Assembly (NCBI RefSeq): GCF_030413175.1
Contig: NZ_CP129212.1
Coordinates: forward strand, 7,255,412-7,319,411
Reading direction: 5' to 3'
Length of the DNA: 64,000 nt
Source: Bradyrhizobium roseum
GTDB taxonomy: Bacteria; Pseudomonadota; Alphaproteobacteria; Rhizobiales; Xanthobacteraceae
Shown: positions 3,388 to 32,363 of the stretch, in pieces
Numbering within the stretch: the first letter of the stretch is position 1
Layout: the number at the start of each line of letters is the position of its first letter
Notes under the pieces: generated by a model
Told to the model about the DNA's origin: nothing
Seen by the model: the letters and a program-made list of their open reading frames with translations, nothing else
Databases searched by the model: none
Position numbers and translations under genes: made by a program

Positions 3388-3608
3388 CACTCTTCACTTT
3401 CCTGGCCGCGCTTGCGGGCGTTGACCGTGATGGGGAGCGAGGTGCCCGCCGCCATTTCCGGCAGATCGAGGACCCAGCCATTGGCGATACGGATCCAGCC
3501 GCCCCACAGCGATTCGTGTTCGGATTCCACGATCGGCTCCTCGAGATCCTTTTTCGGCACGTAGATCGAAAGCCCCGTCTCCGGAGAACGGCGAATCATC
3601 ACTTTCAT
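3387..3608 (-). CDS. nifT: NifT/FixU protein
   Basis: A 73-residue protein of the NifT/FixU family, recognised by its size, the N-terminal KVMIRR strand and the conserved GGWI segment. Its biochemical role is unknown; it is commonly linked to nifDK or nifS and is often dispensable. The ATG at 3608 overlaps the nifS stop by four bases (ATGA), and its own stop overlaps the start of the SIR2-like gene. The three genes are therefore tightly coupled. Confidence 0.9.
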
Positions 3609-4813
3609 AGGGTCAGCTCCGTGGATCGGGATGGGTTCGCCGTGACATGCCCGCGCTCTTGCCATGAGGGTGACAGCGCCCTCAATTTGGCAACGATCTC
3701 CGGCAGCAGATTCAGCACGTAGACAACGTCATCGATGGTGTTGTCGCGTGACAACGAAAACCTGATGGCGCCGCGCAGCGCCGTCGTCGGTACATTCATC
3801 GCGCGCAGCACGTGCGACGGCTCCATCGAGCCGGATGCGCAGGCCGAGCCCAGGGACGCGGCTATACCGGCCCGGTTCAAATGATGAATGATGGCCTCAC
3901 CTTCGAGATGCTCGAAAGCGACGTTGCAGGTGTTCGACAACCTGTTCTCGGTGTCGCCCAACACCATGCAATCGCCGATCTGGAGAATGCCCCGTTCGAG
4001 ACGGTCGCGCAGGATATGAACGCCGCCCTGCTCGTCCTGCAACTGCGCCAACGCCAGTTCGGCGGCTTTTCCCAATCCGACGATCCCGGGCACGTTCTCG
4101 GTGCCGCCGCGACGCCGGCGCTCCTGAGGGCCGCCGCGAACCAGCGGATTGAACTTCGTGCCCTTGCGCAGATAGAGCGCCCCGATGCCCTTCGGGCCGT
4201 GCAGCTTGTGTCCCGACAGCGACAGCATGTCGATCCCGGTCGCCTTCAGATCGAGCGGGATCTTGCCGACCGCCTGCACCGCATCGACATGGAACAGTGC
4301 CCCGGCCTCATGCGCCATCGTGGCCAGTCGATCGACCGGGAACAGCGTTCCGGTCTCGTTGTTGGCCCACATCACCGATGCGAGTGCGGTGCGTGGCCCA
4401 AGCGCCTGCCTAAACGCTTCGAGATCGAGACGGCCCTGCGCATCGACGCCGATCAAATGCGTCCTGATACCGCGTGACGACGCGAGGTACTCCACCAGCG
4501 AAAGAACGGCGGGGTGCTCGACGGCCGTCGTGACGATCTCGTCACGTCCGTCCTGCGTATCCAGCGCCGACAGGATCGCGGCATTGTTCGATTCGGTGCC
4601 CCCCGACGTGAACACGATTTCGTGGTCGAAGGCCGTCCCAAGCAGCGCCTGCAGGCTGCTGCGCGCCCGCTTTACCGCGCCTGCGACTTCACTGCCGAAG
4701 GCGTGAGCCGACGAGGCATTTCCGAACTGTTCCGAAAAATACGGCAGCATCGCCGCAACGACGGCCGGGTCCGTGCGCGTCGTCGCGTTGTTGTCGAAAT
4801 AGATCGGCCGCAC
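3605..4813 (-). CDS. nifS: NifS cysteine desulfurase
   Basis: NifS is a PLP enzyme that releases sulfur from cysteine for nitrogenase cluster assembly. The 402-residue product has the PLP lysine in SGHKLHGPKG (Lys203), the substrate histidine region around His100, and the active-site Cys325 in GSACASGS, as in class I NifS/IscS enzymes. It starts 12 bases after the NifU C-terminal gene stop and overlaps nifT. The cluster also carries the class II desulfurase SufS, so two sulfur donors are encoded. Confidence 0.96.
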   Translation of the reverse strand: MRPIYFDNNATTRTDPAVVAAMLPYFSEQFGNASSAHAFGSEVAGAVKRARSSLQALLGTAFDHEIVFTSGGTESNNAAILSALDTQDGRDEIVTTAVEHPAVLSLVEYLASSRGIRTHLIGVDAQGRLDLEAFRQALGPRTALASVMWANNETGTLFPVDRLATMAHEAGALFHVDAVQAVGKIPLDLKATGIDMLSLSGHKLHGPKGIGALYLRKGTKFNPLVRGGPQERRRRGGTENVPGIVGLGKAAELALAQLQDEQGGVHILRDRLERGILQIGDCMVLGDTENRLSNTCNVAFEHLEGEAIIHHLNRAGIAASLGSACASGSMEPSHVLRAMNVPTTALRGAIRFSLSRDNTIDDVVYVLNLLPEIVAKLRALSPSWQERGHVTANPSRSTELTL

Positions 4814-4825
4814 GGAACGCCTCTT

Positions 4826-5116
4826 TCAATGTCGCGCCTTCGCCGCTCCTGCGACCGGGATCAGGCGCACGAACTCGCCGAGCCTTTCCACCAGGCGCGC
4901 CTGGATGCCCTCGAGCGTGGCGCTACTCAACTTGCAGAAGACGCAGGCGCCCGTGAGCTTGACCATGATCTTGTTGCCGTCGATCTCGATCAACTGGCAG
5001 TCGCCGCCGTCCCGCTGCAGGTTCGGTCGGATTTCCTCAATCACCGCCTTGATGATCTCGGCGCGATCCATCTCCGCGGCCGGCGATTGCTTCGAATGTT
5101 CGGTTTCAATCAGCAT
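4826..5116 (-). CDS. Stand-alone NifU C-terminal domain protein (Nfu type)
   Basis: The 96-residue product contains only the C-terminal NifU/Nfu domain, with GACVFC supplying the Cys-x2-Cys cluster ligands. The N-terminal IscU-like scaffold and the central [2Fe-2S] domain of full NifU are absent. It probably carries [4Fe-4S] clusters to nitrogenase apoproteins. The ATG at 5116 was chosen because it begins where homology to short NifU proteins begins; the frame is open further upstream. It sits between iscA and nifS. Confidence 0.88.
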   Translation of the reverse strand: MLIETEHSKQSPAAEMDRAEIIKAVIEEIRPNLQRDGGDCQLIEIDGNKIMVKLTGACVFCKLSSATLEGIQARLVERLGEFVRLIPVAGAAKARH

Positions 5117-5162: not shown

Positions 5163-5483
5163 TCAGCCGAACGATTTTCCGCAGGAGCAGCTGTTCTTCG
5201 CGTTCGGGTTTTCGAAGGTGAAGCCCGACCCCTCAAGGGCAATCACGAAGTCGATCGTGGTCCCTGCAAGGTAGTCGTGGCTCTTGTTGTCGACGAAGAC
5301 CCGCACGCCGTCGCGCTCGATCACGGTGTCGTCGGGGTCGACCTCGTCGACCAGGCCCAGCATGTATTTGAAACCGGCGCAGCCGCCCGCCTCGACCATG
5401 ATGCGCAAGCCGTCGACCGGCTTGTTGGCCGTGGCGATCGCGTTGCGCACCGCGTTCAGCGCACTATCCGTCAGATTGATCAT
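5163..5483 (-). CDS. iscA: IscA-type iron-sulfur carrier in the nifS operon
   Basis: A 106-residue A-type carrier with the complete three-cysteine set: GGCAG in the first half and SCSCG near the C-terminus. It likely transfers clusters made with NifS sulfur. The ATG at 5483 follows a GAGGGCGAG ribosome site; the longer open frame to 5594 would run into the AAA+ gene. It lies 82 bases downstream of the AAA+ ATPase gene and 46 bases before the NifU-like gene. Confidence 0.92.
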   Translation of the reverse strand: MINLTDSALNAVRNAIATANKPVDGLRIMVEAGGCAGFKYMLGLVDEVDPDDTVIERDGVRVFVDNKSHDYLAGTTIDFVIALEGSGFTFENPNAKNSCSCGKSFG

Positions 5484-5565: not shown

Positions 5566-7344
5566 TTACAGCTTTGCGGCTGTCGCCTTTGCAACGCGTG
5601 TCAGGTTTCCGACATGGCGGCTTTGCGCCGCCGGCGGACACTCGGGGGCCGACGGCGGCCTCAGATCGATGCCGCGGAATATCGCGCAGCGCTCGAACAC
5701 CTCCAGGGTCGGAGGCACCTTCCTGTGTTGGCAATATTTGGCGACGAGCTTTGCCAGCCCCTTGATGTCGCGGCCTGACGTGCCCGGGAAAGTCCCGACC
5801 AGGGCGTCGAGCAACGGGGCATCGACCGCGAGCCCGAATTGCTCGGTCATGACGCTCCAGATCTTCCGGCGCGCCTCGTCGTCCGGCGGCATGAACTTGA
5901 TCAACGCGATGCAGCGCGAGACGATCGCCTCATCGATATCATCGATGCGGTTCGTGGTCAGAAACAGCAGGCCATTGAAATATTCCAGCACCCGCAGGAA
6001 CACGCCCACGACGGCGTTCATCGTGATGTCATCGTCCCGGCGCTTGATATAGACGTCCGCCTCGTCGATCAGCATGACTGCGCCCCAGCGCTGCGCCCGC
6101 ATCAACGCGTCCTTGAGCGCGCTTTCCATGGCGGCAACGTTAAGCCCGAGCTGGCCGGAATGAACCCGGTAAAGCGGTCGCTGGATGATTTCGGCATAGA
6201 CCTCCGCCGTCAGCGTCTTGCCGACCCCGGGCGGCCCCGCGCACAACACCGTCGTGCCTCCGGATTTTCCGGCGACGATGTCGTCCATCAGGACATCCAT
6301 TTCGGCGGTGAGGATGTCGATGAGATCGGTCTGCTCCTCGGGCAGGATCAGCTTTTGCTTCAGATCGGGCTGATAGGCATAGGGCGTCATGTCGGCGACA
6401 TGAACCCAAACATGATGGTGTAGTTCGAGATGAAACATCAGCATGTAGGGATGTACCGGCATCCTGCAGAACAAGCCTCCCGGAATCGCGGCCCTGGATT
6501 GCTCGACCTCGACTTCGGCATCATAGAGATTGCTCTTGGCGGCCTTTCTCAGATATTGGCCAAGGATATCCCCGGTCACATCGAGTGTCAGCGCGCGCGT
6601 GCTCAGGATGCTTTCATCATTGACGAGGCGCCCCAGACCGCCGCCCGACGACAACACGACGACGTCCTTGCGTGACCAATCCGTGTCCCGATGAGACGAA
6701 TTCGGATCTTCCGCAAAGAAGCCGGTGCCGCTCCCTGAGAACTGGTGACCATACTGTCCCCGCCAGGCGAAATAGCGGCTTTCGGTGTCGTCATAGGCCG
6801 CGATCAATTCAGGCGTTTCCTTCAGGAACCCCTTTGCCGCGAAGATTTCGGGCACCGTCTTTCCGACGATGTCACCGGCTGAAATCCTGAGCGTCGTCGA
6901 CGTGATCGTGCCTTTGGCGTTGGCCTTCAGCTCGATAAAGACCCGGCCGGTCTCGTCATTCGAAGGCGGCGTAAAGTCGAGCCGCGTGACGACGTATGGC
7001 AGCGGCCTGCTGGCGACGCTGGCGGTGAACATCCAGCCCCGGATCGCATCGGCGACCAGATAGCGCGCGATCGCGGGCAGCACGGATTCCAGGTCCGCGG
7101 CCGCGAACCTGACGCCGCGTTCGCTGAAGGCCCGCTGAAGGGTCACGATCTGGGCCGAGCGGACCTGCATATCGGGTCCGGCCTGGTGGTAGAGATCCTT
7201 CAGAAACCCGAGTTCGGCGTCGGAAAGCTGACGGAATGCGACCTCCACCCTGTCGCCGAAGCGAAGTTGCTCCCTGAGCGAGGCCAGCCCCGGAAAGCTT
7301 GCGACCATCGCTTCGAAGTAAGGCCGCTCGATCTGAAGCTTCAT
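5566..7344 (-). CDS. AAA+ ATPase of the nif cluster
   Basis: A 592-residue protein with an uncharacterised N-terminal half (about 1-350) and a C-terminal AAA+ module. Walker A is GPPGVGKT at 370-377, Walker B is MLIDEAD ending at 430, and a sensor-1-like TTN is at 463-465. AAA+ proteins of this kind remodel or activate partner proteins. Its position as first gene of the iscA-nifU-nifS-nifT operon, behind a sigma-54 promoter at 7456-7471, points to nitrogenase maturation or metal-centre insertion. That role is inferred from position only. Confidence 0.88.
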   Translation of the reverse strand: MKLQIERPYFEAMVASFPGLASLREQLRFGDRVEVAFRQLSDAELGFLKDLYHQAGPDMQVRSAQIVTLQRAFSERGVRFAAADLESVLPAIARYLVADAIRGWMFTASVASRPLPYVVTRLDFTPPSNDETGRVFIELKANAKGTITSTTLRISAGDIVGKTVPEIFAAKGFLKETPELIAAYDDTESRYFAWRGQYGHQFSGSGTGFFAEDPNSSHRDTDWSRKDVVVLSSGGGLGRLVNDESILSTRALTLDVTGDILGQYLRKAAKSNLYDAEVEVEQSRAAIPGGLFCRMPVHPYMLMFHLELHHHVWVHVADMTPYAYQPDLKQKLILPEEQTDLIDILTAEMDVLMDDIVAGKSGGTTVLCAGPPGVGKTLTAEVYAEIIQRPLYRVHSGQLGLNVAAMESALKDALMRAQRWGAVMLIDEADVYIKRRDDDITMNAVVGVFLRVLEYFNGLLFLTTNRIDDIDEAIVSRCIALIKFMPPDDEARRKIWSVMTEQFGLAVDAPLLDALVGTFPGTSGRDIKGLAKLVAKYCQHRKVPPTLEVFERCAIFRGIDLRPPSAPECPPAAQSRHVGNLTRVAKATAAKL

Positions 7345-22331: not shown

Positions 22332-22347
22332 TGTTGTAAACCCGACA
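22332..22347. promoter_or_regulatory. NifA upstream activator site 1 of nifH
   Basis: Exact TGT-N10-ACA, about 75 bases upstream of the -24 element of the nifH promoter. Confidence 0.88.
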
Positions 22348-22381
22348 TCGCTGCGCTTCACCTGACGTCGGAAGCCGTGGC

Positions 22382-22397
22382 TGTCTCAAACGAAACA
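22382..22397. promoter_or_regulatory. NifA upstream activator site 2 of nifH
   Basis: Exact TGT-N10-ACA, exactly 50 bases beyond site 1. Paired sites are common upstream of rhizobial nifH. Confidence 0.85.
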
Positions 22398-22517
22398 AGT
22401 ATGCGGTCTGCCGGCACCGTAATGAGCGCCCCTCGCGCCAAAGCGGACGTCCGCACCATGCGGCACCGCGGTACGACGTTTGCTTGGGAGAACCAAACCA
22501 GGTCAGCGAGGACGAAG

Positions 22518-22961
22518 ATGCCGATCGATTTGAAGCCTTTGCTCCCGGAGCAAGACGACATCATTTTCGTGGTGGAAGACGATGAGGTCATTCGCTCGGC
22601 GCTGCACTTCATCCTGGATGACCGGAACGAGACTCACTCATTTGCGAGCCTTGACCAGGCCATTGCCAAGGCCGCGAGCAGGAATCCGAATGCGATCCTG
22701 CTTGGGATCGGTATGGTGCAGCACAACGGAGAACGAGTTTTGGCCGAGATCGTCATGCGGTTGCCCGGCACAAGGATCCTGATCGTGGCCGATTCCGTCA
22801 ATGACCCCATCGCCGTTGCGAGCCTGAAATGGGGGGCTCACGACGTGCTCGGAAAGCCCATCAGCTTCGATTCCGTCCGCCGCAAGGTCGATGCCTTGCT
22901 CGGACCTCAAGAGCTCTCACCGACCTTGCTGGGATTGCTGCCGTTGTCGGCTGCATGGTGA
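22518..22961 (+). CDS. Degenerate response-regulator receiver protein
   Basis: The 147-residue product is a single receiver (CheY-like) domain with no output domain. The acidic cluster Glu20-Asp21-Asp22 and the conserved Lys113 (GKPI) remain. The phosphoacceptor position is Gly63 (LLGIGM where LLDIGMP is usual), and the conserved Thr/Ser position appears to be Ala91. It therefore cannot be phosphorylated in the normal way and is a pseudo-receiver, perhaps a protein-interaction module. The ATG at 22518 follows GAGGACGA. It is divergent from nifH and 56 bases before sufE. Confidence 0.85.
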   Translation: MPIDLKPLLPEQDDIIFVVEDDEVIRSALHFILDDRNETHSFASLDQAIAKAASRNPNAILLGIGMVQHNGERVLAEIVMRLPGTRILIVADSVNDPIAVASLKWGAHDVLGKPISFDSVRRKVDALLGPQELSPTLLGLLPLSAAW

Positions 22962-23017: not shown

Positions 23018-23494
23018 ATGGACCACTCATCTACTGATATTCCGCCGATCGATGACATCATCGACAACTTCGCATTGCTGGACGAGTGGGACGACCGATA
23101 TCGCTACGTCATCGAACTCGGCCGCGGCATGAGCCCGCTGCCCGAGCTCGACCGCACCGAGGCGAACAAGGTTCAGGGTTGCGCAAGCCAGGTATGGTTG
23201 GCAACGGCGATGGGTTTCGATGACGACCGACCTGTGCTCACCTTCCGCGGCGACAGCGATGCTCACATCGTCCGTGGACTGGTGGCGATCCTGCTCGCGA
23301 CCGTCTCCGGCAGGCAGGCCACCGAGATCCTGGCGACTGACCCGATTGCCCTGTTCGATCGTCTGGGACTGCGCGAACACCTGACGCCGCAGCGTTCGAA
23401 CGGGTTTCGGTCCATGGTCGAGCGCATCCGCGCCGACGCCCGGCAGGCGCTGTCAGATGCCCCTCCGGCCAATCGGCTTCGGGCGGTCAGCTGA
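23018..23494 (+). CDS. sufE: SufE sulfur acceptor
   Basis: SufE takes persulfide sulfur from SufS and passes it to the SufBCD scaffold. The 158-residue product has the acceptor Cys55 in QGCASQVW. It follows the pseudo-receiver gene on the plus strand and overlaps the convergent nifZ gene by eight bases at the 3' ends. Its partner SufS is encoded immediately beyond nifZ on the other strand. Confidence 0.93.
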   Translation: MDHSSTDIPPIDDIIDNFALLDEWDDRYRYVIELGRGMSPLPELDRTEANKVQGCASQVWLATAMGFDDDRPVLTFRGDSDAHIVRGLVAILLATVSGRQATEILATDPIALFDRLGLREHLTPQRSNGFRSMVERIRADARQALSDAPPANRLRAVS

Positions 23495-23825
23495 CCCCTC
23501 GCGGCGCGGCCCTCACCATCTCCCGGCCCCGCATGATGACGACGGCCGCACGGTTGAAAAATTCGACCGTGTAGTAGATTTCTCCCAGAAAGCTCCAGCT
23601 TTCGCGGACCATGCCGGTATCGCCCTGGTGGACCAATGTCTCGCCGATATCCCGGTGAGGATAGATGCCGTCATTTGTGATCTGCGTCAGCGAACGCACC
23701 GCGTCGCCGCGCTTGAATTCGTGTTTACCCGGAACGCCCGGGGCTCGGCCAACCTGTCGCCGGCGGGCGTCGTGGACGACACGGCCAATGGTGACAGGCC
23801 TTGAATGGGGAGTTGGGTGGTTCAT
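23487..23825 (-). CDS. nifZ: NifZ
   Basis: NifZ helps form the second P-cluster pair of the MoFe protein. The 112-residue product shows the NifZ-domain pattern: a basic GRVVHDARR start, NDGIYPHRDIGETLV in the middle, and an aromatic YYTVEFF segment. Its start overlaps the sufS stop by four bases (ATGA), so it is translationally coupled to the suf operon. It is the last gene there. Confidence 0.85.
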   Translation of the reverse strand: MNHPTPHSRPVTIGRVVHDARRRQVGRAPGVPGKHEFKRGDAVRSLTQITNDGIYPHRDIGETLVHQGDTGMVRESWSFLGEIYYTVEFFNRAAVVIMRGREMVRAAPRGVS

Positions 23826-25063
23826 GCGAAGAACTCCTGCGCCTTGGCGAGAGCACGCGCCAGAACATCGACCTCGTCGTGGGTGTTATAGAGAGCGAAC
23901 GACGCCCGGCAGGTCGCCGTGACGCCGAAGCGTTCCAGCAGCGGCATGGCACAATGTGTCCCTGCCCGCACTGCAACGCCGGCGCGATCGATGACGGTCG
24001 CGAAATCATGCGCGTGAGCGCTCTTCATTTCAAACGATATAATGGCGCCCTTTTCGGCCGCCGTTCCGATGATGCGCAGCGAGTTGATCTCACGCAGTTT
24101 TTCTTGCGCATAGGACAGCAGCGAGGCTTCATGCGCCCTGATCCGGCTCTTGCCGATCGAATTGATATAGTCGATCGCCGCACCAAGCCCGATCGCCTGC
24201 ACGATCGGCGGCGTTCCGGCCTCGAACCGGTGCGGCGGCGCGCCGTAGGTGACGTTATCCCGGTGGACCTCGCGGATCATCTCGCCGCCACCGTTGAATG
24301 GCGGCATGGTCGCCAGATGTTCGTGCTTGCCATAAAGCGCGCCGATGCCGGTCGGCCCGTACAGTTTGTGGCCGGTGACAACGTAGAAATCGCAATCGAT
24401 ATCCCGGACGTCGACATCCATGTGAACGGAAGACTGCGCGCCGTCGACGAGCACGGGAATTCCCCGTGCGTGCGCGATCCGCACCACTTCCTTGACCGGC
24501 ACGACGGTGCCGAGCACATTCGACATCTGCGTGATCGCGACCATCTTGGTGCGTTCGGTCAGCAGCTTCTCGAATTCGTCAATCAGGAAATTGCCGTCGT
24601 CGTCCACCGGCGCCCATTTGATCACCGCACCCTGGCGTTCGCGCAAGAAATGCCAGGGAACGATGTTGGCATGGTGCTCCATGATGGAGAGTACGATTTC
24701 ATCGCCCGGCCCGATGCGCGCGCGCCCGAATGTCTGGGCAACCAGGTTGATCGCCTCGGTCGCGCCCCGGGTGAAGACGATCTCGTCGCTACGACCGGCA
24801 TTCAGGAATCCGGCAACCTTTTCCCGGGCACCTTCGTAACCTTCCGTTGCGGCGTTGGCGAGGTAATGCAGCCCGCGATGAACGTTTGAGTATTCGGATG
24901 TGTAGGCCTGGGTCAGCCGATCCAGAACGGCCCTCGGCTTCTGGGCCGAAGCGGCATTGTCGAAATAGACCAGCGGCTTGCCGTAGACCTGCATTCCGAG
25001 GATCGGGAAATCCTCGCGAACCCGGCCGACGTCATAGCTGCCATTGCTTACCGCCGGGTGCAT
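23822..25063 (-). CDS. sufS: SufS cysteine desulfurase
   Basis: SufS is the class II (SufS/CsdA) PLP desulfurase that works with SufE. In the 413-residue product the PLP lysine is Lys233 (TGHKLYGP) and the catalytic Cys371 lies in RAGTHC. The ATG at 25063 leaves four bases to the sufD stop; an in-frame TTG at 25084 would overlap sufD. It supplies sulfur independently of NifS. Confidence 0.95.
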   Translation of the reverse strand: MHPAVSNGSYDVGRVREDFPILGMQVYGKPLVYFDNAASAQKPRAVLDRLTQAYTSEYSNVHRGLHYLANAATEGYEGAREKVAGFLNAGRSDEIVFTRGATEAINLVAQTFGRARIGPGDEIVLSIMEHHANIVPWHFLRERQGAVIKWAPVDDDGNFLIDEFEKLLTERTKMVAITQMSNVLGTVVPVKEVVRIAHARGIPVLVDGAQSSVHMDVDVRDIDCDFYVVTGHKLYGPTGIGALYGKHEHLATMPPFNGGGEMIREVHRDNVTYGAPPHRFEAGTPPIVQAIGLGAAIDYINSIGKSRIRAHEASLLSYAQEKLREINSLRIIGTAAEKGAIISFEMKSAHAHDFATVIDRAGVAVRAGTHCAMPLLERFGVTATCRASFALYNTHDEVDVLARALAKAQEFFA

Positions 25064-25067
25064 CGCA

Positions 25068-26399
25068 TCATCCCCGCTGGCCAAGCCAGGCCGCCGTGGC
25101 GTCTATCAGCGCATCACGGATGCCCTCATGCGCGACCGCCTCGACGACTTCGGCGGCGAACGCCTGAATCAGCAGCGCCTCCGCCTGCTTGTCGGGAATG
25201 CCGCGGGCCATGAGGTAAAATTTGAGCTGATCGTCGAGCGTGCCCGCCGTGGCGCCGTGGCCGCACTGGACATCGTCGGCGAAGATCTCCAGCTCGGGCT
25301 TGCAGTCGGCCTCCGCTCTGTCAGACAGCAGCAACGCACGAGACATCATCTTCGCATCCGTCTGCTGCGCCTGCGGCCGAACGGTGATCTTGCCCTGAAA
25401 CACGGCGCGCGCCTTATCGTCGACCACCGCCTTGAAGACTTCGCGGCTCTGGCTGCCAGCGACAGCGTGATCGACGACAAGCGTGTTATCCGCATGTTCC
25501 CCGCCGGCCAGCAGGCTGAGGCCACGTAAATTGGCTTCGATGCCTTCCCCCGCCAGCAGCACGAACAGCTGGTTGCGGACGACAGCTCCACCTGCCGTGA
25601 AAGCCAGTTCATTGAATTTCGCTCGCGCGCCAATGTTGGCCAGGAGCGTTGCCAGGTGGATGGCGAGGTCCCCCTCGCGCGTCATCTTGATGTGATCGAC
25701 CTGAGCTTCATCGCCAACCACGACCTGGAGCACCGTGTTGACCTGATAGTCCAGTTGATCGCGGCCCTCGTGGGTCTCGACGAGGATCGCGCGGGCGCCT
25801 CCGCCGACCACAACCAGCGACCGCGTGACCATGGCCGCCGGCATTGGTCCCGTATTGACGAAGACGAGGTGCACCGGCCGCTCGATCGTGGCACCAGGCG
25901 AAACCGTAATCACGACGCCATCGCCGGCCAGCGCCGTGTTGAGCGCCAGTGCCGGGTCGTCGGCAGGGACCGTCGTGCCAAGGCCTTGCGACAGCAAGGG
26001 TTCGTCCTCGGCCAACGCTTCGGCCATCGGCCGAATGGTGAGGCCTGGTTCGAGATTGGCGAGGTCGGACATATCCTTCGCAAACGAGCCGTTCAGAATG
26101 ACCAGCCGCCTGAAGCCAAGTGCGGCGAACACGCCGCCCGCATCTCGCGCCATCGCCCTTGCCTTGACATCGGGCGGAGCCGCAAGCGGCTTGGCATCCC
26201 GCATCAATCGCCGCAGGTCGGTGTACCGCCAGGCCTCAACGCGCGGGTGCGGCAGCCCGGCCACTGCAAAATGATTGAAGGCTGCGGCACGCACCGCCGC
26301 GACATCGCTGCCGCCCGGCAAGCCCTGCCGGGAGGTGGTGTAAACATCGACCAGGCCAAGCTCGGCCTGAGTCCTGACGGGGCGAATTCCAGCGTTCAT
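25068..26399 (-). CDS. sufD: SufD scaffold subunit
   Basis: The 443-residue product is the SufD partner of SufB in the SufBC2D Fe-S scaffold. It was recognised by the beta-helix core and the C-terminal segment around CGHGAT that contains the family's conserved His. It lies between sufC and sufS on the minus strand, five bases after sufC. The N-terminal region is variable, as usual in SufD. Confidence 0.93.
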   Translation of the reverse strand: MNAGIRPVRTQAELGLVDVYTTSRQGLPGGSDVAAVRAAAFNHFAVAGLPHPRVEAWRYTDLRRLMRDAKPLAAPPDVKARAMARDAGGVFAALGFRRLVILNGSFAKDMSDLANLEPGLTIRPMAEALAEDEPLLSQGLGTTVPADDPALALNTALAGDGVVITVSPGATIERPVHLVFVNTGPMPAAMVTRSLVVVGGGARAILVETHEGRDQLDYQVNTVLQVVVGDEAQVDHIKMTREGDLAIHLATLLANIGARAKFNELAFTAGGAVVRNQLFVLLAGEGIEANLRGLSLLAGGEHADNTLVVDHAVAGSQSREVFKAVVDDKARAVFQGKITVRPQAQQTDAKMMSRALLLSDRAEADCKPELEIFADDVQCGHGATAGTLDDQLKFYLMARGIPDKQAEALLIQAFAAEVVEAVAHEGIRDALIDATAAWLGQRG

Positions 26400-26404
26400 G
26401 ATCG

Positions 26405-27163
26405 TCAGGCCGCTTCGTTCTGATATTGCGCGTAGCCGGTCGCTTCGAGCTCAAGCGCGAGCTCCTTGCCGCCGGTTCGCACGATGCGGCCGGCCGATAG
26501 CACATGGACGACGTCCGGCACGATATAGTCCAGCAGCCGCTGGTAATGCGTGATCACGATCATCCCGCGCTCGCTCGATCGAAGCTGGTTGACGCCGTTG
26601 GCAACGATCTTCAGCGCGTCGATGTCGAGGCCGGAATCGGTCTCATCGAGCACGCAGAGCAGCGGTTCCAGAAGCGCCATCTGCAGCGTCTCGTTTCGCT
26701 TCTTCTCGCCTCCGGAGAACCCGACGTTGAGCGGCCGGCGCAGCATCTCGGCGTCGATGCCGAGCTTCCGGGCAATCTCGCGGACGCGCTTGAGCAGTTC
26801 CGGCGAAGTCAACTCCTCTTCACCACGCTTGCGGCGTTGCGCGTTCAACGCGGTCCGCAGGAATGTGACGGTAGCGACACCCGGGATTTCCAATGGATAC
26901 TGGAAGGCAAGAAAGACGCCCTTGGCGGCACGTTCGTCCGGGCTCATCGCGAGCAGGTCCTCGCCCCTGAACAGAACTTCGCCACCGGTAATCTCGTAGC
27001 CGGGCTTTCCCGCCAGCACGTAAGAGAGTGTCGATTTGCCGGCCCCGTTCGGGCCCATGATGGCGTGGACCTCGCCGGCATTCACGGCAAGATCGAGGCC
27101 GTTGAGGATCTTACGTCCGCCGATTTCGGCCTGCAGGTTGCGGATCTCGAGCAGTGGCGTCAT
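26405..27163 (-). CDS. sufC: SufC ATPase
   Basis: SufC is the ABC-type ATPase of the SufBCD complex. The 252-residue product has Walker A GPNGAGKS, the family signature SGGEKKRNE and Walker B VLDETDSGLD. It is cytosolic and drives the conformational change that opens the SufB-SufD interface. It is 37 bases downstream of sufB. Confidence 0.97.
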   Translation of the reverse strand: MTPLLEIRNLQAEIGGRKILNGLDLAVNAGEVHAIMGPNGAGKSTLSYVLAGKPGYEITGGEVLFRGEDLLAMSPDERAAKGVFLAFQYPLEIPGVATVTFLRTALNAQRRKRGEEELTSPELLKRVREIARKLGIDAEMLRRPLNVGFSGGEKKRNETLQMALLEPLLCVLDETDSGLDIDALKIVANGVNQLRSSERGMIVITHYQRLLDYIVPDVVHVLSAGRIVRTGGKELALELEATGYAQYQNEAA

Positions 27164-27200
27164 CGCAAATTGCCTCCGTTGCCTGTTTGAACCGACACCA

Positions 27201-28697
27201 TCACCCGACGCTGCCTTCCAGCGATATCGAGATCAGCTTCTGCGCTTCCACCGCAAACTCCATCGGCAGTTGCTGCAGCACATCTTTCACAAAGCCGTTG
27301 ACGACGAGGCCGACGGCTTCTTCCTGGCTGAGACCGCGCTGGATGCAGTAGAACAGCACGTCCTCGGAGATCTTGGACGTCGTCGCCTCGTGCTCGAACT
27401 GCGCCGTCGAGTTCTTCGCCTCGACATAGGGCACGGTGTGCGCGCCGCACTTGTCGCCGATCAGCAGCGAGTCGCAGGCGGTGAAGTTGCGTGCGCCGGT
27501 CGCCTTGCGATGCGCGGTGACAAGGCCGCGATAGGTGTTTTGCGACACCCCCGCGGCGATGCCCTTGGAGATGATCCGGCTGGTCGTGTTCTTGCCGAGA
27601 TGGATCATCTTGGTGCCGCTATCGACCTGCTGGTGACCGTTCGAGATCGCGATCGAGTAGAACTCGCCGCGCGAATTGTCGCCGCGCAAAATGCAGCTCG
27701 GATATTTCCAGGTGATCGCCGAACCGGTCTCGACCTGGGTCCAGGAGATCTTTGAATTGTTGCCGCGGCAGTCGCCACGCTTGGTGACGAAATTGTAGAT
27801 GCCGCCGACGCCTTCGGAATTGCCGGGATACCAGTTCTGCACCGTCGAATACTTGATCTCGGCGTCGTCGAGCGTGACGAGTTCGACCACGGCAGCATGC
27901 AACTGATTCTCGTCGCGCTGCGGCGCGGTGCAGCCTTCGAGATAGCTGACATAGGCGCCCTTGTCGGCGATGATCAGCGTGCGCTCGAATTGTCCGGTGT
28001 TGCGCTCGTTGATGCGGAAATAGGTCGACAATTCCATCGGGCAGCGCACGCCCGGCGGCACGTAGACGAACGAGCCGTCGGAAAACACCGCCGAGTTCAA
28101 CGTCGCGAAGTAATTGTCCGAGGTCGGCACGACCGTGCCGAGATACTTCTGCACCAGTTCGGGGTGCTCGCGGATGGCTTCCGAGATCGGCATGAAGATG
28201 ACGCCGGCGGCCTTCAATTCCTTCTGGAACGTGGTGGCGACGGAAACGGAGTCGAACACGGCATCGACCGCGATGCGTCGTTCGCCAGGGGCGCCTTCGC
28301 CCTCCTTGCGCACCACGCCTTCCAGCATCTCGACCTCCCGCAGGGGGATGCCGAGCTTCTCATAGGTCTTGAGGATCTCCGGATCGATCTCGTCCAGCGA
28401 GCCGATCTGCTTCTTCGGCTTCGGTGCGGAGTAATAGTAGAGATCCTGGTAGTCGATCGCGGGATAGTTCACGCGGGCCCACGCCGGCTCGCTCATGGTC
28501 AGCCAGCGGCGATACGCCTCCAGCCGCCATTCCAGCATCCATGCCGGTTCGTTCTTTTTTGCGGAGATGAAGCGGACGGTGTCTTCCGACAGCCCCTTGG
28601 GAGCCTTGTCGGACTCAATGTCGGTAACGAACCCGTATTTGTATTGCTCAACGTCGACGCTCCGGACCCTTTCAACGGTCTCCTGTACGGCTGCCAT
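27201..28697 (-). CDS. sufB: SufB scaffold subunit
   Basis: SufB is the main Fe-S assembly subunit of the SUF system. The 498-residue product has the conserved [18 protein letters not shown] region, with the cysteine that starts the sulfur route, and a C-terminal [15 protein letters not shown] segment. It starts three bases after the stop of the 67-residue gene. It is part of the fdxN-to-nifZ operon behind NifA sites. Confidence 0.97.
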
Positions 28698-28700
28698 TCG

Positions 28701-28904
28701 TCACTCCACTCGCGGATCGGCTGCCAGATCGGCATGCCAACGCGTCCTCAATTCCGAAGCATCAACCGGGCGCGCCCTCGCGACGACGCGCGCAATCACC
28801 TGCCGAACCCGCCGATCTTCACCCGCGACAAGCGCAAGCAGAAGCTCGCCCATGCGGGAAAATAACTCGCCGGTTGTCCTGGCAGTGCTGCCAATGTTTG
28901 CCAT
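28701..28904 (-). CDS. Small uncharacterised protein between fdxN and sufB, 67 residues
   Basis: Not recognised. It is basic and helical, rich in Arg, Ala and Val, and has no cysteine. AAAGGA stands eight bases before the ATG, and the gene fits between fdxN (12 bases away) and sufB (three bases away), so it is very likely translated. It may be an accessory to the SUF machinery; that is a guess from position. Confidence 0.7.
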   Translation of the reverse strand: MANIGSTARTTGELFSRMGELLLALVAGEDRRVRQVIARVVARARPVDASELRTRWHADLAADPRVE

Positions 28905-28916
28905 CGCTGCGGTCCT

Positions 28917-29111
28917 TTACGCGGGCACGCAGGTGTTTTCGACCGGGCACACCACGGCGCATTGCGGCGTGTCGAAATGCCCGACACATTCGGTGCATTT
29001 CTTCGGATCGATGATGTACATGTCGTTCTTGAGACGGATGGCGGCGTTGGGACACTCGAATTCACACGCGCCACATACCGTGCATTGTGAGGCAATGATC
29101 TTGTAGGCCAT
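28917..29111 (-). CDS. fdxN: 2[4Fe-4S] ferredoxin, FdxN type, leading the suf operon
   Basis: A 64-residue ferredoxin with the same ligand layout as the one at 387-611, including the eight-residue spacing in the second motif ([13 protein letters not shown]). The ATG at 29111 begins the conserved region. It is the first gene after a sigma-54 promoter 41 bases upstream and two NifA sites. The two ferredoxins may serve different partners, one NifB and one the SUF or nitrogenase side. Confidence 0.92.
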
Positions 29112-29151
29112 CTCGTGACTCCCGCGCGTCGATGCCGGACGAGATATCCCT

Positions 29152-29167
29152 TTCAAGCGCCGTGCCA
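29152..29167 (-). promoter_or_regulatory. Sigma-54 promoter of the fdxN-suf-nifZ operon
   Basis: The minus strand reads TGGCAC, five bases, TTGAA. The -24 half is perfect and the -12 half has GA for GC. It lies 41 bases before the fdxN ATG, with two NifA sites 56 to 90 bases further upstream. Confidence 0.75.
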
Positions 29168-29222
29168 GAAGTCAGTCCCTTGATTTACAACCGTTATTCG
29201 CAGTTGTAGGGGATCGCTGTCC

Positions 29223-29238
29223 TGTCGCTCCCACGACA
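29223..29238. promoter_or_regulatory. NifA upstream activator site 1 of fdxN-suf
   Basis: Exact TGT-N10-ACA between nifA and fdxN. It is part of a pair with the site at 29242-29257. Confidence 0.85.
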
Positions 29239-29241
29239 GCC

Positions 29242-29257
29242 TGTCGCAACTGCGACA
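29242..29257. promoter_or_regulatory. NifA upstream activator site 2 of fdxN-suf
   Basis: Exact TGT-N10-ACA with symmetrical flanks (CTGTCGCAACTGCGACAG), starting 19 bases from site 1. It lies immediately after the nifA stop codon. Confidence 0.87.
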
Positions 29258-29264
29258 GTCACGT

Positions 29265-31010
29265 TTAGAGGTGCTTGACCTCGATGCCATGCTTCTTCAA
29301 CGCATAGCCGATCTGGCGGGGCGTCAGGCCCAAGATGCGCGCGGCCTTGGCCTGAACCCAGCCGGATTTCTCCATCGCCGCGATGAAGCGATCGCGCTCG
29401 CTCATCTGTCCCCAATTCGCCTCCACCGAAGCGGCGGGCGCTGGCGCGGGGTCGGAGTCCGGCTGACTTGGCGGCGTGCTGGCGTTCGTCGCCCCGCCTT
29501 TGGGTACGGCCGGCAACACCGGCAGCGGGATCGCGGGCCGCAACCGCGCCGGCGCGACTTCCGAACTCCCCTTCCAGAGCATCGCAGACAGGCACTCGTT
29601 CCGGCGACAGGCAAAATCGTCCATCGCGATCGATGGACCATGCGCCAGCGTCGCGGTGCGCTGAACGCAGTTCTCCAGCTCGCGTACGTTGCCAGGAAAG
29701 CCGCAGCCCATGAGCACTTCCAGCGCGGTCGCGTCGAAGGTCAGGGTTCGGCCATTCTCGCCGTTGAAGCGCTTGAGGAATTCACCGGCAAGCTGCGGGA
29801 TATCGCTACGCCGCTCACGCAGCGGCGGCATCAAAATCGGCACGACGCTGATACGATAATAGAGGTCGGCGCGAAACTCCTTGCGAGCCACCGCTTCCTC
29901 GAGATTCCGGTTGGTCGCCGCAACGACCCGCACGTCGACCTTGATCGTATGGTTGCCGCCGACACGTTCGAATTCCTGCTCCTGAAGTACGCGCAGAAGC
30001 TTGGCCTGGAAGGCGGGAGAAATTTCGCCGATCTCATCGAGGAACAGCGTACCCTTGTCGGCGAGTTCGAAGCGTCCCTTGCGCGCGTTGAGCGCGCCGG
30101 TAAATGCTCCCTTTTCGTGGCCGAACAGCTCGGACTCGAGGACGGATTCCGGCAATGCGGCACAGTTGATCTTGATGAAAGGACCCTTGGCGCGCGGCGA
30201 CAACTCGTGAATCGCCTTGGCAATCAGCTCCTTGCCGGTGCCGGATTCGCCGCGCACCAACACGGTCGAATTGGATTTGGCGACGATCGTAATCTGCTCG
30301 AGCAGCGAACGGAGAGCAGGACTGTCTCCGACGATCCCCTTGATGTGGACTCTCTTGCGCTCCCGCGCCGGCTTCAGCTCCGACAGCTCCTTCTGCAGAC
30401 GGTAGCTCTCGGCCATCAGGCGGTCGCGGTCGCGCGAGACGACGCGGTAAAGCTGAACGGTCTGTCCGATCAGATTGGCTATCATGGTGAGAAAGCGCAC
30501 GTCGGTATCGAGCCTGAACACCGACCGGCCGTCCCAGATGCGATCGATGGTCAACGTCCCGACGACCTTCGCGCCGATCCGGATCGGCACGCCGATGAAC
30601 GAGACCCTGACATCACCGTCAGCTCCGAGCGCAGTCGCGTCCGTCTTGAACAGCGGATGGGTAAGGACGTCCTCGGCGACCAGCGGAACGGCGGTCGCGA
30701 CAATCTGACCGATCGCCGTTTCCGGCAAGCGAGCCCGGTAGCGCTCGTCGGCTCCCTCGTGCCAGCCAACGCCGACGGTGACATCCGGCACATCGTCATC
30801 GGCCAGCAGTGAGATGACGCCATGGCGCATCTGCAGGAAGGACGATAGAACGTTGAGGACGTTCGATAGCGTGGTTTCCAGTCTGTTTGGCGCGTTAAGT
30901 AGCTTGGAAATCTCGTAGATTCCAGTGAGCGCGATGTCACTCAGGGGAATCAGCGGCGGCTTGGGCTGCGCCTCTAAGCCTTCAACAACGGACGCATCGG
31001 CATGGGCCAT
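29265..31010 (-). CDS. nifA: NifA, sigma-54-dependent nif activator
   Basis: NifA is the master activator of nif promoters. The 581-residue product has an N-terminal GAF domain (about 40-190), a central AAA+ domain with Walker A GESGTGKE (254-261) and the sigma-54 contact loop GAFTGA (301-306), and a C-terminal helix-turn-helix. Cys436, 448, 468 and 473 fit C-X11-C-X19-C-X4-C, the pattern of oxygen- and metal-sensitive rhizobial NifA. The ATG at 31010 follows GGAGAG at good spacing; an in-frame ATG at 31079 would add 23 residues but lacks a ribosome site. It lies downstream of fixR. Confidence 0.97.
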
Positions 31011-31317
31011 GATGATCTCTCCATCGTCCTGGACTTCCCCCGCCGACTTTTCTGAAGGTTTGCTGATATCCTGTCCCATCTTCGTTCAATTGTCGTGCTC
31101 AAGTTCAACGCACCGGCGCGGAACTTATCGGCGCGAGTTGCACACTTTTTTCCCGCCACGGGCCTGCGGCCCATCCCCCGCAGTTGCCGGCGACCGGGCG
31201 GTCGCGGCCGTTGTTGCAGCACCTGCACTGATCTGCATCAGACCGGCAAGGCTAAGCTGACGACACCGCGGCGTCCCGGCACGCCGCTTTTTGAAGCCCG
31301 AGGACGCACCCGAGGGA
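31011..31317. other. Long interval between fixR and nifA
   Basis: About 300 bases separate the two genes, longer than expected for a tight fixR-nifA operon. It contains a GGGCC-TGC-GGCCC palindrome at 31160-31172 and GC-rich sequence. I saw no convincing sigma-54 promoter or NifA site here. An unrecognised separate nifA promoter is possible. Confidence 0.5.
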
Positions 31318-32103
31318 TCAGACGTGCTGTCCGCCATTAATCTTGATTTCCTCACCGGTGACGTAGCTGGCCGCGTCCGAGCACAGAAAGAAGATCACCT
31401 TGGCGACCTCGTCGGGCGATCCGATCCGGCCCATGGGTATGACAGGGGCAAGCCGAGCCTCGGTCTCCGGTGACAGAATGTCAGTCCTGATTTCGCCTGG
31501 TGCGATGGCGTTCACCCGGACGCCGTGCGGCGCGAAATCGTGTGCCATCTCCCTAGTGAGGCAGGCAAGGGCCGCTTTCGAAGTTGCATAAGCCGTCCCG
31601 GCAAAGGGATGCACACGCGAACCGACGATCGAGGTGACATTGACGACGGTGCCGGAGCCGTCCTTCAACTCGTCGAACAGACCGCGGGCGAGCAGGATCG
31701 GCGCCAGAAAGTTGACATGGAAGACATTCATCCAGGTATCAACGGGGGTCGTCAGCGACGTGAGACGGCCACCCTCGACGTTCTTCGGGGAAAGGGCCGC
31801 ATTGTTGACCAGTGCATGCAGCGGCATCCCGCCGAGACGCGCCTTGATCTCGGCGAGTGCCTGCGGCATGGCGCGGTGATTGCCGAGGTCAACCTCAACG
31901 TGATCGTTCGACCCCGCATCCCATGGGCACCGGTTGCCGTCGAACGGCTGACGCGAGCAGGTGATGATCCGCCAGCCCGCTTCCGAGAACAACTTCACTG
32001 TTGCGTGTCCGATACCGCGCGAGGCGCCGGTCAGAACCATGGTCTTTTGCCCGGCGGAAGGCCGCACGATTTCCGAAGGCATGCCGGGAAAAGGACAGAG
32101 CAC
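31318..32103 (-). CDS. fixR: FixR, short-chain dehydrogenase-like protein
   Basis: FixR is the SDR-family protein encoded upstream of nifA in Bradyrhizobium; its substrate is unknown. The 261-residue product has the cofactor motif TGASRGIGHA, the NNAA segment, and the catalytic YATSK. The GTG at 32103 was chosen because GGAG stands six bases upstream, whereas the ATG at 32082 has no ribosome site. In Bradyrhizobium the fixR promoter links nifA to redox control through RegR and to NifA itself. Confidence 0.9.
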   Translation of the reverse strand: MLCPFPGMPSEIVRPSAGQKTMVLTGASRGIGHATVKLFSEAGWRIITCSRQPFDGNRCPWDAGSNDHVEVDLGNHRAMPQALAEIKARLGGMPLHALVNNAALSPKNVEGGRLTSLTTPVDTWMNVFHVNFLAPILLARGLFDELKDGSGTVVNVTSIVGSRVHPFAGTAYATSKAALACLTREMAHDFAPHGVRVNAIAPGEIRTDILSPETEARLAPVIPMGRIGSPDEVAKVIFFLCSDAASYVTGEEIKINGGQHV

Positions 32104-32244: not shown

Positions 32245-32347
32245 ACCGATCGAGATCGGACTTCCGAAGGCGAAGTCGCCCGATCGGATCGGGGCACGAA
32301 CCAATTTTACGGACCGAAGCCGGTGAATGTCGATCTTCCGACAAACC

Positions 32348-32363
32348 TGTCATGTTCGATACA
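32348..32363. promoter_or_regulatory. NifA upstream activator site between fixR and the FmdB-like gene
   Basis: Exact TGT-N10-ACA. It is about 104 bases from the fixR -24 candidate and about 52 bases from a weak plus-strand -24 candidate, so it could serve either direction. Confidence 0.6.

Follow-up and report, generated by a model that had tools for sequence, protein, structure and literature searches.

The stretch of DNA analysed here, hereafter the window, is the final 64 kb of the 7.32-Mb single-contig genome of Bradyrhizobium roseum, and it carries an operon, fdxN-sufB-sufC-sufD-sufS-nifZ, in which the genes of a SUF iron-sulfur (Fe-S) cluster pathway stand between a ferredoxin gene and nifZ. 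We propose, at a probability of about 0.8, that this operon is a nitrogenase-dedicated SUF system of the Bradyrhizobium nif island, driven by NifA and replacing a full-length NifU, whose SufB component has remained interchangeable with that of the housekeeping SUF system. An earlier reading, made from the letters of the window alone (the sequence-only reading), had already suggested NifA/sigma-54 control, which our comparison bears out, and a dedication to nitrogenase, which is supported with one qualification: gene conversion appears to hold the nif sufB near its housekeeping counterpart.

The promoter of the fdxN-suf operon

The region between fdxN and nifA, the gene directly upstream, contains two exact TGT-N10-ACA sites and a -24/-12 element (Table 1), all three of which the sequence-only reading had reported; the -12 box of the element is TTGA, not TTGC. 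We have compared this region in 37 nif loci, the window included, two of which have no fdxN match in the stretch covered. In all 35 loci that have fdxN, a TGT-N10-ACA site and an element of the form TGGCAY-N5-TTG[AC] are located ahead of this gene, the 35 including near-identical relatives and therefore not being independent. Two NifA-type sites occur in 26 of these loci and one in the remaining nine; the -12 box is TTGA in 31 loci (the window among them) and TTGC in four, and the GG-N10-GC pattern is found, except that GA replaces GC at -12 in the 31. Ahead of the housekeeping suf genes, the pair of site and element occurs in none of 66 segments taken from 34 genomes, each reaching at most 420 bp upstream of either the IscS-like gene or sufB.

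Within the window, TGT-N10-ACA occurs 13 times against 4.9 expected, and in four places it is accompanied by a -24/-12 element 50-150 bp downstream; all four are in the nif region, ahead of nifB (where the pair falls inside the 5' end of the longest nifB reading frame), hesB-nfu-nifS, nifH and fdxN-suf. No such pair arose in 60 first-order Markov simulations of the window, and these simulations, together with the conservation across the loci, rule out chance as the origin of the fdxN-suf promoter. In Bradyrhizobium sp. DOA9, a relative with the same gene order, the RNA of sufE, sufD, sufB and sufS is lowered in rpoN mutants, according to the excerpts of PMC13207237, in which the suf copy is unspecified (this and the other papers are cited here from excerpts). 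Given the conserved promoter anatomy and the RNA-seq of this relative, the predicted NifA/sigma-54 control of fdxN-suf is well supported.

The fixR-like gene is itself preceded, at a distance of about 225 bases, by two further TGT-N10-ACA sites (32328-32363) that are 20 bases apart; a -24/-12 element was looked for beside them and none was found.

At the far end of the operon, sufE is convergent with nifZ, as the sequence-only reading had it; what had been missed is a sigma-54 element belonging to sufE and to the receiver-domain gene that precedes it, so that sufE would join the same regulon. An element on the same strand occurs ahead of the receiver gene or sufE in 14 of 14 loci, picked for having either gene beside nifH, which makes it unlikely that sufE is a bystander; sufE is probably read from this divergent element, sharing its upstream sites with nifH. 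The receiver-domain-only protein encoded between nifH and sufE is fast evolving, being approximately 38-61% identical where found; in some loci the gene was not found, and sufE is there located directly behind the promoter.

The second suf operon and the missing NifU

The genome of the window contains four SufB/SufD-type matches and, at 3.965-3.971 Mb, a second complete operon in the order desulfurase-sufB-sufC-sufD-sufS and onwards. The search for a housekeeping copy that the sequence-only reading had called for has thus succeeded: the nif-linked genes as the only, and hence housekeeping, suf operon are ruled out, and the nif-linked operon need not be the housekeeping system.

A full-length NifU was not found in this genome, its sole NifU match covering the C-terminal ~80 positions in a 96-residue protein; as a candidate for an IscU or NifU elsewhere, there is a single weak NifU_N match (65.7 bits, cut-off 92.5), which is SufU-like. 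Two parallel sulfur routes had been expected by the sequence-only reading: NifS is indeed present, with a NifA-type promoter on its gene group, but since no full NifU was found, what the genome as scored offers is a pair of sulfur donors (NifS and SufS) with a single type of scaffold (SufBCD), which falls short of two complete routes.

Across the genus, a full NifU over the cut-off occurs in none of 195 genomes, 127 of which have nifD, and a short C-terminal match like the remnant in the window is seen in 78 of the 195. A sufB match lies within about 15 kb of nifD in at least 23 of the 127 nifD genomes (21 by eye); at most seven sufB candidates were scored per genome, and genus genomes with no sufB match are possibly search misses. 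In a sample of 149 genomes of the family, nifD is found in 41 (one a fragment), and a long NifU match in 14 of these (13 over the cut-off). No genome with a long NifU match has two sufB matches, 13 of the 14 having one and the last none; among the 27 nifD genomes without a long NifU, 13 have two or more, and two others (G035 and G149) have nif-linked suf genes at contig ends. In these counts, the class of two or more includes G011, which has one full match and two partial ones, and the second sufB of G023 is partial. The same division is seen within one genus: in Aquabacter (G061) the nif-suf operon is present and NifU is not, and the congeners G016, G087 and G126 have NifU and no second sufB. 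These counts fit a SUF system that substitutes for NifU.

Two observations were made beside these counts. In G035, the contig (locus L186, C3:1-20000) opens immediately upstream of nif-sufC, and a search at E 1e-100 gave no sufB match in this genome, as if the assembly had broken at a sufB repeat. In Rhodoblastus acidophilus (L074), a suf operon is followed, about 4 kb downstream of sufS, by a NifA-like gene (53% by tblastn), which suggests that nif-linked suf may also occur outside the family.

Homogenisation of sufB

In the genome of the window, the nif-linked and housekeeping SufB are 97% identical (95.8% in the gapped tblastn alignment) and their genes agree at 0.81 of the fourfold sites, against protein and fourfold identities of 0.72 and 0.50 for sufC, 0.49 and 0.50 for sufD, and 0.78 and 0.54 for sufS. 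The stretch of high similarity in the window is sufB alone, from 17 bases before its start through its stop.

We have examined the four genes in 34 genomes, picked for both copies being visible and thus not random; the nif sufD of G267 and the nif sufS of G140 were left out as incomplete, so that sufD and sufS were each compared in 33 of the 34 pairs. In quick DNA trees, the fewest switches between nif and housekeeping copies are 16 for sufB, five each for sufC and sufD, and one for sufS, all 33 nif rows of which fall to the same side of the tree (support 94, not starred). A single nif clade is rejected by approximately unbiased (AU) tests for sufB (p 1.4e-24), sufC (4.9e-6) and sufD (7.2e-13). 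The conflict in sufC and sufD has been traced to 12 genomes, in which the nif sufC groups with Bradyrhizobium housekeeping genes, as does the nif sufD wherever it is intact (11 of the 12); in these 12 genomes, conversion or replacement appears to have reached sufB, sufC and sufD but not sufS.

More careful trees were built for 22 genomes that were picked after the sufC tree, with their nif sufC in one clade: the clean split of sufC in this set is by construction, while sufD and sufS (the latter compared in 21 of the 22 pairs) are independent of the choice. Here, sufB needs 10 switches (nine in the quick tree) and the other three genes one each; sufD and sufS, like sufC, separate cleanly into a nif clade and a housekeeping clade, and for sufB the AU test, run like those above on the quick trees and with a group that had not been fixed in advance, rejects a single nif clade (p 9e-6). 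In eight of the 22 genomes, the two sufB copies are each other's sisters, the pair of the window at 100/100 and two of the eight with a bootstrap of only 62; own-genome sister pairs are found in 0/22 genomes for sufC, 0/22 for sufD and 0/21 for sufS.

Third codon positions alone recover the same eight pairs, with 10 switches for sufB and two for each other gene, and thereby rule out protein convergence as the source of the pattern; first and second positions give seven sufB switches and keep four of the eight pairs, that of the window included. The alternative that the pattern reflects strong protein conservation or an assembly artefact, rather than gene conversion, could appeal to SufB being the most conserved of the four proteins and to the four pairs that are lost from the first and second positions; we regard it as very improbable indeed, given the eight pairs at third positions, the excess of fourfold identity of sufB over its neighbours in the window, and the several genomes that are single contigs, including that of the window, G053, G166, G213 and G288.

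Homogenisation is not universal: in 10 of the 34 genomes (G061, G051, G083, G104, G123, G092, G023, G067, G140 and G155), the SufB copies are 79-86% identical, with fourfold identities of 0.60-0.73, values close to those of the other genes. Taken together, the trees suggest that the nif sufB has been kept near the housekeeping sufB by repeated gene conversion. The direction would be from the housekeeping to the nif copy, because the sufB pair of the window is placed among the relatives with which the housekeeping sufD and sufS group. That sufB is the most similar of the genes may be reason enough for conversion to favour it; the overall least similar gene, sufD, has been replaced in one group, and sufS has never been replaced in the sample.

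Dedicated system or dosage copy

The nif-linked operon might alternatively be a dosage copy, which lifts total SUF capacity when Fe-S demand is at its peak and has no specificity for nitrogenase. Such a copy is in keeping with the closeness of SufB to the housekeeping SufB and with the 12 of the 27 NifU-negative, nifD-positive genomes of the family sample that have neither a visible nif-linked nor a second suf; it does not account for the separate nif clades of sufD and sufS (and of sufC, by choice of the set) in the 22 genomes, which span several genera, nor for the one-sidedness of the nif sufS, for which there would be no call if the copy served dosage alone. We therefore consider a dosage copy unlikely, if the most serious of the rivals, and prefer a system dedicated to nitrogenase.

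Several observations weigh against this preferred reading. The 12 genomes just mentioned, having neither NifU nor a dedicated suf, suggest that in some lineages nitrogenase can be supplied by the housekeeping SUF, so that a dedicated copy would not be obligatory; conversely, G091 and G150 have two sufB matches and no nifD match. The mutual exclusion of NifU and the second SUF is phylogenetically clustered, and its figures are counts of genomes. As for the promoter, its -12 box deviates from TTGC, and in G034 this promoter precedes an fdxN that has no suf gene within the 20 kb covered. The closeness of SufB to the housekeeping SufB speaks against a full separation of the two machines. Lastly, nifU is named among the rpoN-dependent genes of DOA9 in the excerpts of PMC13207237; we take this gene to be a short Nfu-type remnant.

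The combined claim, i.e. that a NifA-driven second SUF system replaces NifU, that SufS together with SufD and SufC has specialised, and that SufB is shared through recurrent conversion limited to its gene, is one to which we would give even odds.

Gene content of the locus

Gene identities were assigned by matches to NCBIfam and Pfam profiles, which place the genes named by the sequence-only reading, nifA included, where it had put them; the doubtful one is orf67, whose open reading frame exists but matches no family and has a positional relative in only one other of 36 loci (G205 locus L138; 43 residues at 58%), so that orf67 may not be a real gene. The reported ATGA overlap between sufS and nifZ is present in the window; among the 36 loci examined, three others have the same zero gap, and in the remainder nifZ is mostly farther away or not found. 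The true ATG start of sufS is probably at 25063, as judged by eye.

Table 1. Features of the window that bear on the fdxN-suf operon, its promoters and the accompanying nif genes
Feature	Coordinates	Strand	Evidence and remarks
nifS	3605..4813	-	TIGR03402
Nfu-type protein, 96 aa, beside nifS	4826..5116	-	restricted to the C-terminal NifU domain (profile positions 209-290 of 290)
IscA/HesB-type carrier	5163..5483	-	first gene of the hesB-nfu-nifS group
hesB-nfu-nifS promoter	5537 (sigma-54 element)	-	site at 5599-5614
Two TGT-N10-ACA sites (22332, 22382)	22332..22397		common to nifH (-) and receiver gene/sufE (+)
Sigma-54 element, receiver gene and sufE	22469..22483	+	CGGTACGACGTTTGC; divergent from nifH
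Receiver-domain protein	22518..22961	+	upstream of sufE
sufE	23018..23494	+	PF02657 over cut-off; NCBIfam SufE models below their cut-offs; convergent with nifZ
nifZ	23487..23825	-	PF04319; ATGA overlap with sufS
sufS	23822..25084	-	cysteine desulfurase; over TIGRFAM cut-off; AGTHCAMP motif
sufD	25068..26399	-	over TIGRFAM cut-off; most diverged from its housekeeping copy
sufC	26405..27163	-	over TIGRFAM cut-off; Walker A motif
sufB, nif copy	27201..28697	-	over TIGRFAM cut-off; homogenised with its housekeeping counterpart in this genome
orf67	28701..28904	-	doubtful gene; no family match
fdxN-like 2[4Fe-4S] ferredoxin	28917..29111	-	first gene of the operon; YfhL-like model 78.3 bits, below cut-off 86
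Sigma-54 -24/-12 element	29152..29167	-	TGGCACGGCGCTTGAA; -12 box TTGA
NifA-type upstream site	29223..29238		TGTCGCTCCCACGACA; exact TGT-N10-ACA
NifA-type upstream site	29242..29257		TGTCGCAACTGCGACA; palindromic, exact TGT-N10-ACA
nifA	29265..31079	-	TIGR01817, 767.7 bits (cut-off 528.85)
Short-chain dehydrogenase at the fixR position, preceding nifA	31318..32103	-	name fixR through synteny with PMC6066989 (excerpts)

The SufE-type SUF gene set is complete in the window, comprising SufB, SufC and SufD with SufS and SufE, and its catalytic residues are kept: a cysteine aligned with C405 of Escherichia coli SufB and a histidine aligned with H360 of E. coli SufD, which we take to be the catalytic positions, the active cysteine of SufS and the Walker A of SufC (both by motif), and the cysteine of SufE (by eye in the sequence). 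With these residues in place, the SUF machine should be functional.

The content of the locus also bears on the possibility that the two suf operons are redundant, the nif copy being carried along by a mobile nif island as a hitch-hiking passenger. In the genomes where nif-linked suf was seen, the operon travels with one type of nifHDK, nifD being 89-97% identical to that of the window, as a passenger would; yet the suf genes are full-length in most of the nif loci examined (two of 34 have an incomplete gene, i.e. sufD in G267 and sufS, at the end of the stretch, in G140), the catalytic residues are kept in the window, and the NifA-type promoter is conserved over several genera, all of which make a mere passenger quite improbable.

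Proposed mechanism

In the dedicated system that we propose, NifA would bind the two sites adjacent to nifA and, acting with RNA polymerase that carries sigma-54, would switch on fdxN-sufBCDS-nifZ; the divergent regulatory region of nifH would switch on the receiver gene and sufE, and a third NifA-type promoter hesB-nfu-nifS. During nitrogen fixation, SufS-SufE, and also NifS, would release sulfur, SufBCD would serve as the scaffold in place of a full NifU, and the IscA/HesB-type and Nfu-type proteins would deliver the clusters both to NifB and to the apoproteins of nitrogenase. SufB would be swappable with its housekeeping counterpart and repeatedly overwritten by conversion, SufS would stay nif-specific, and SufC and SufD would do so in many genomes.

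Comparison with known systems

Nif-linked suf genes have already been published for relatives and are not unusual in the group; the present locus is a further member of this known kind. In Bradyrhizobium sp. DOA9, the order fixR, nifA, 4Fe-4S ferredoxin, sufB, sufC, sufD and sufS is the same, with the suf genes about 6 kb from nifDKENX (PMC6066989); the excerpts of the two DOA9 accounts (PMC6066989, PMC13207237) do not discuss the coupling to nifZ, the sufE promoter, the loss of NifU or the conversion of sufB. Excerpts on Bradyrhizobium nitroreducens TSA1 list fixR, nifA and sufBCDSE in the nif cluster and call the clusters conserved (PMC6167111), and those on photosynthetic Bradyrhizobium list sufBCDX with the nif genes (PMC11973431), in both cases as a listing without promoter or evolutionary analysis. 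A word search of the main text of a genomic reconstruction of NifA regulons returned no suf gene (PMC4999443). In the open-licence literature, we have found no report of sufB homogenisation or gene conversion, and none of an exclusion between NifU and nif-linked suf.

The housekeeping operon of the same genome (L098) has the same core proteins in the same order; it differs in starting with an IscS-like gene, in being followed by DUF59-like and SufA-like genes (assigned by inspection and from a weak tblastn match), and in having no NifA-type promoter. The NifUS system (reviewed in PMC8593673) resembles the locus in being a nif-controlled Fe-S assembly for nitrogenase with nifS present, and differs in its NifU, no full copy of which was found here, SufBCD being present instead. 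For rhizobia, it is an open question how nitrogenase obtains its Fe-S clusters in the absence of NifU, a question that bears on the transfer of nitrogen fixation into other organisms; the locus offers a natural set free of full NifU (SufBCDSE, NifS, IscA and Nfu), each group behind a NifA-type promoter, and the gene-by-gene evolutionary signal predicts which parts would be specific (SufS, SufD) and which exchangeable (SufB).

A functional parallel is sufCDSUB of Paenibacillus polymyxa, where there is no NifU and where deletions show that SufCDB is a scaffold for nitrogenase, alongside a NifS-like donor and an Nfu-type carrier (excerpts of PMC8038749); the window encodes the same kinds of proteins, with SufE where P. 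polymyxa has SufU. In P. polymyxa, it is the complete sufCDSUB operon that serves nitrogenase, and a partial second copy does not (PMC8038749), whereas the genome of the window has a second, complete operon that forms part of the nif island and is preceded by a NifA-type promoter.

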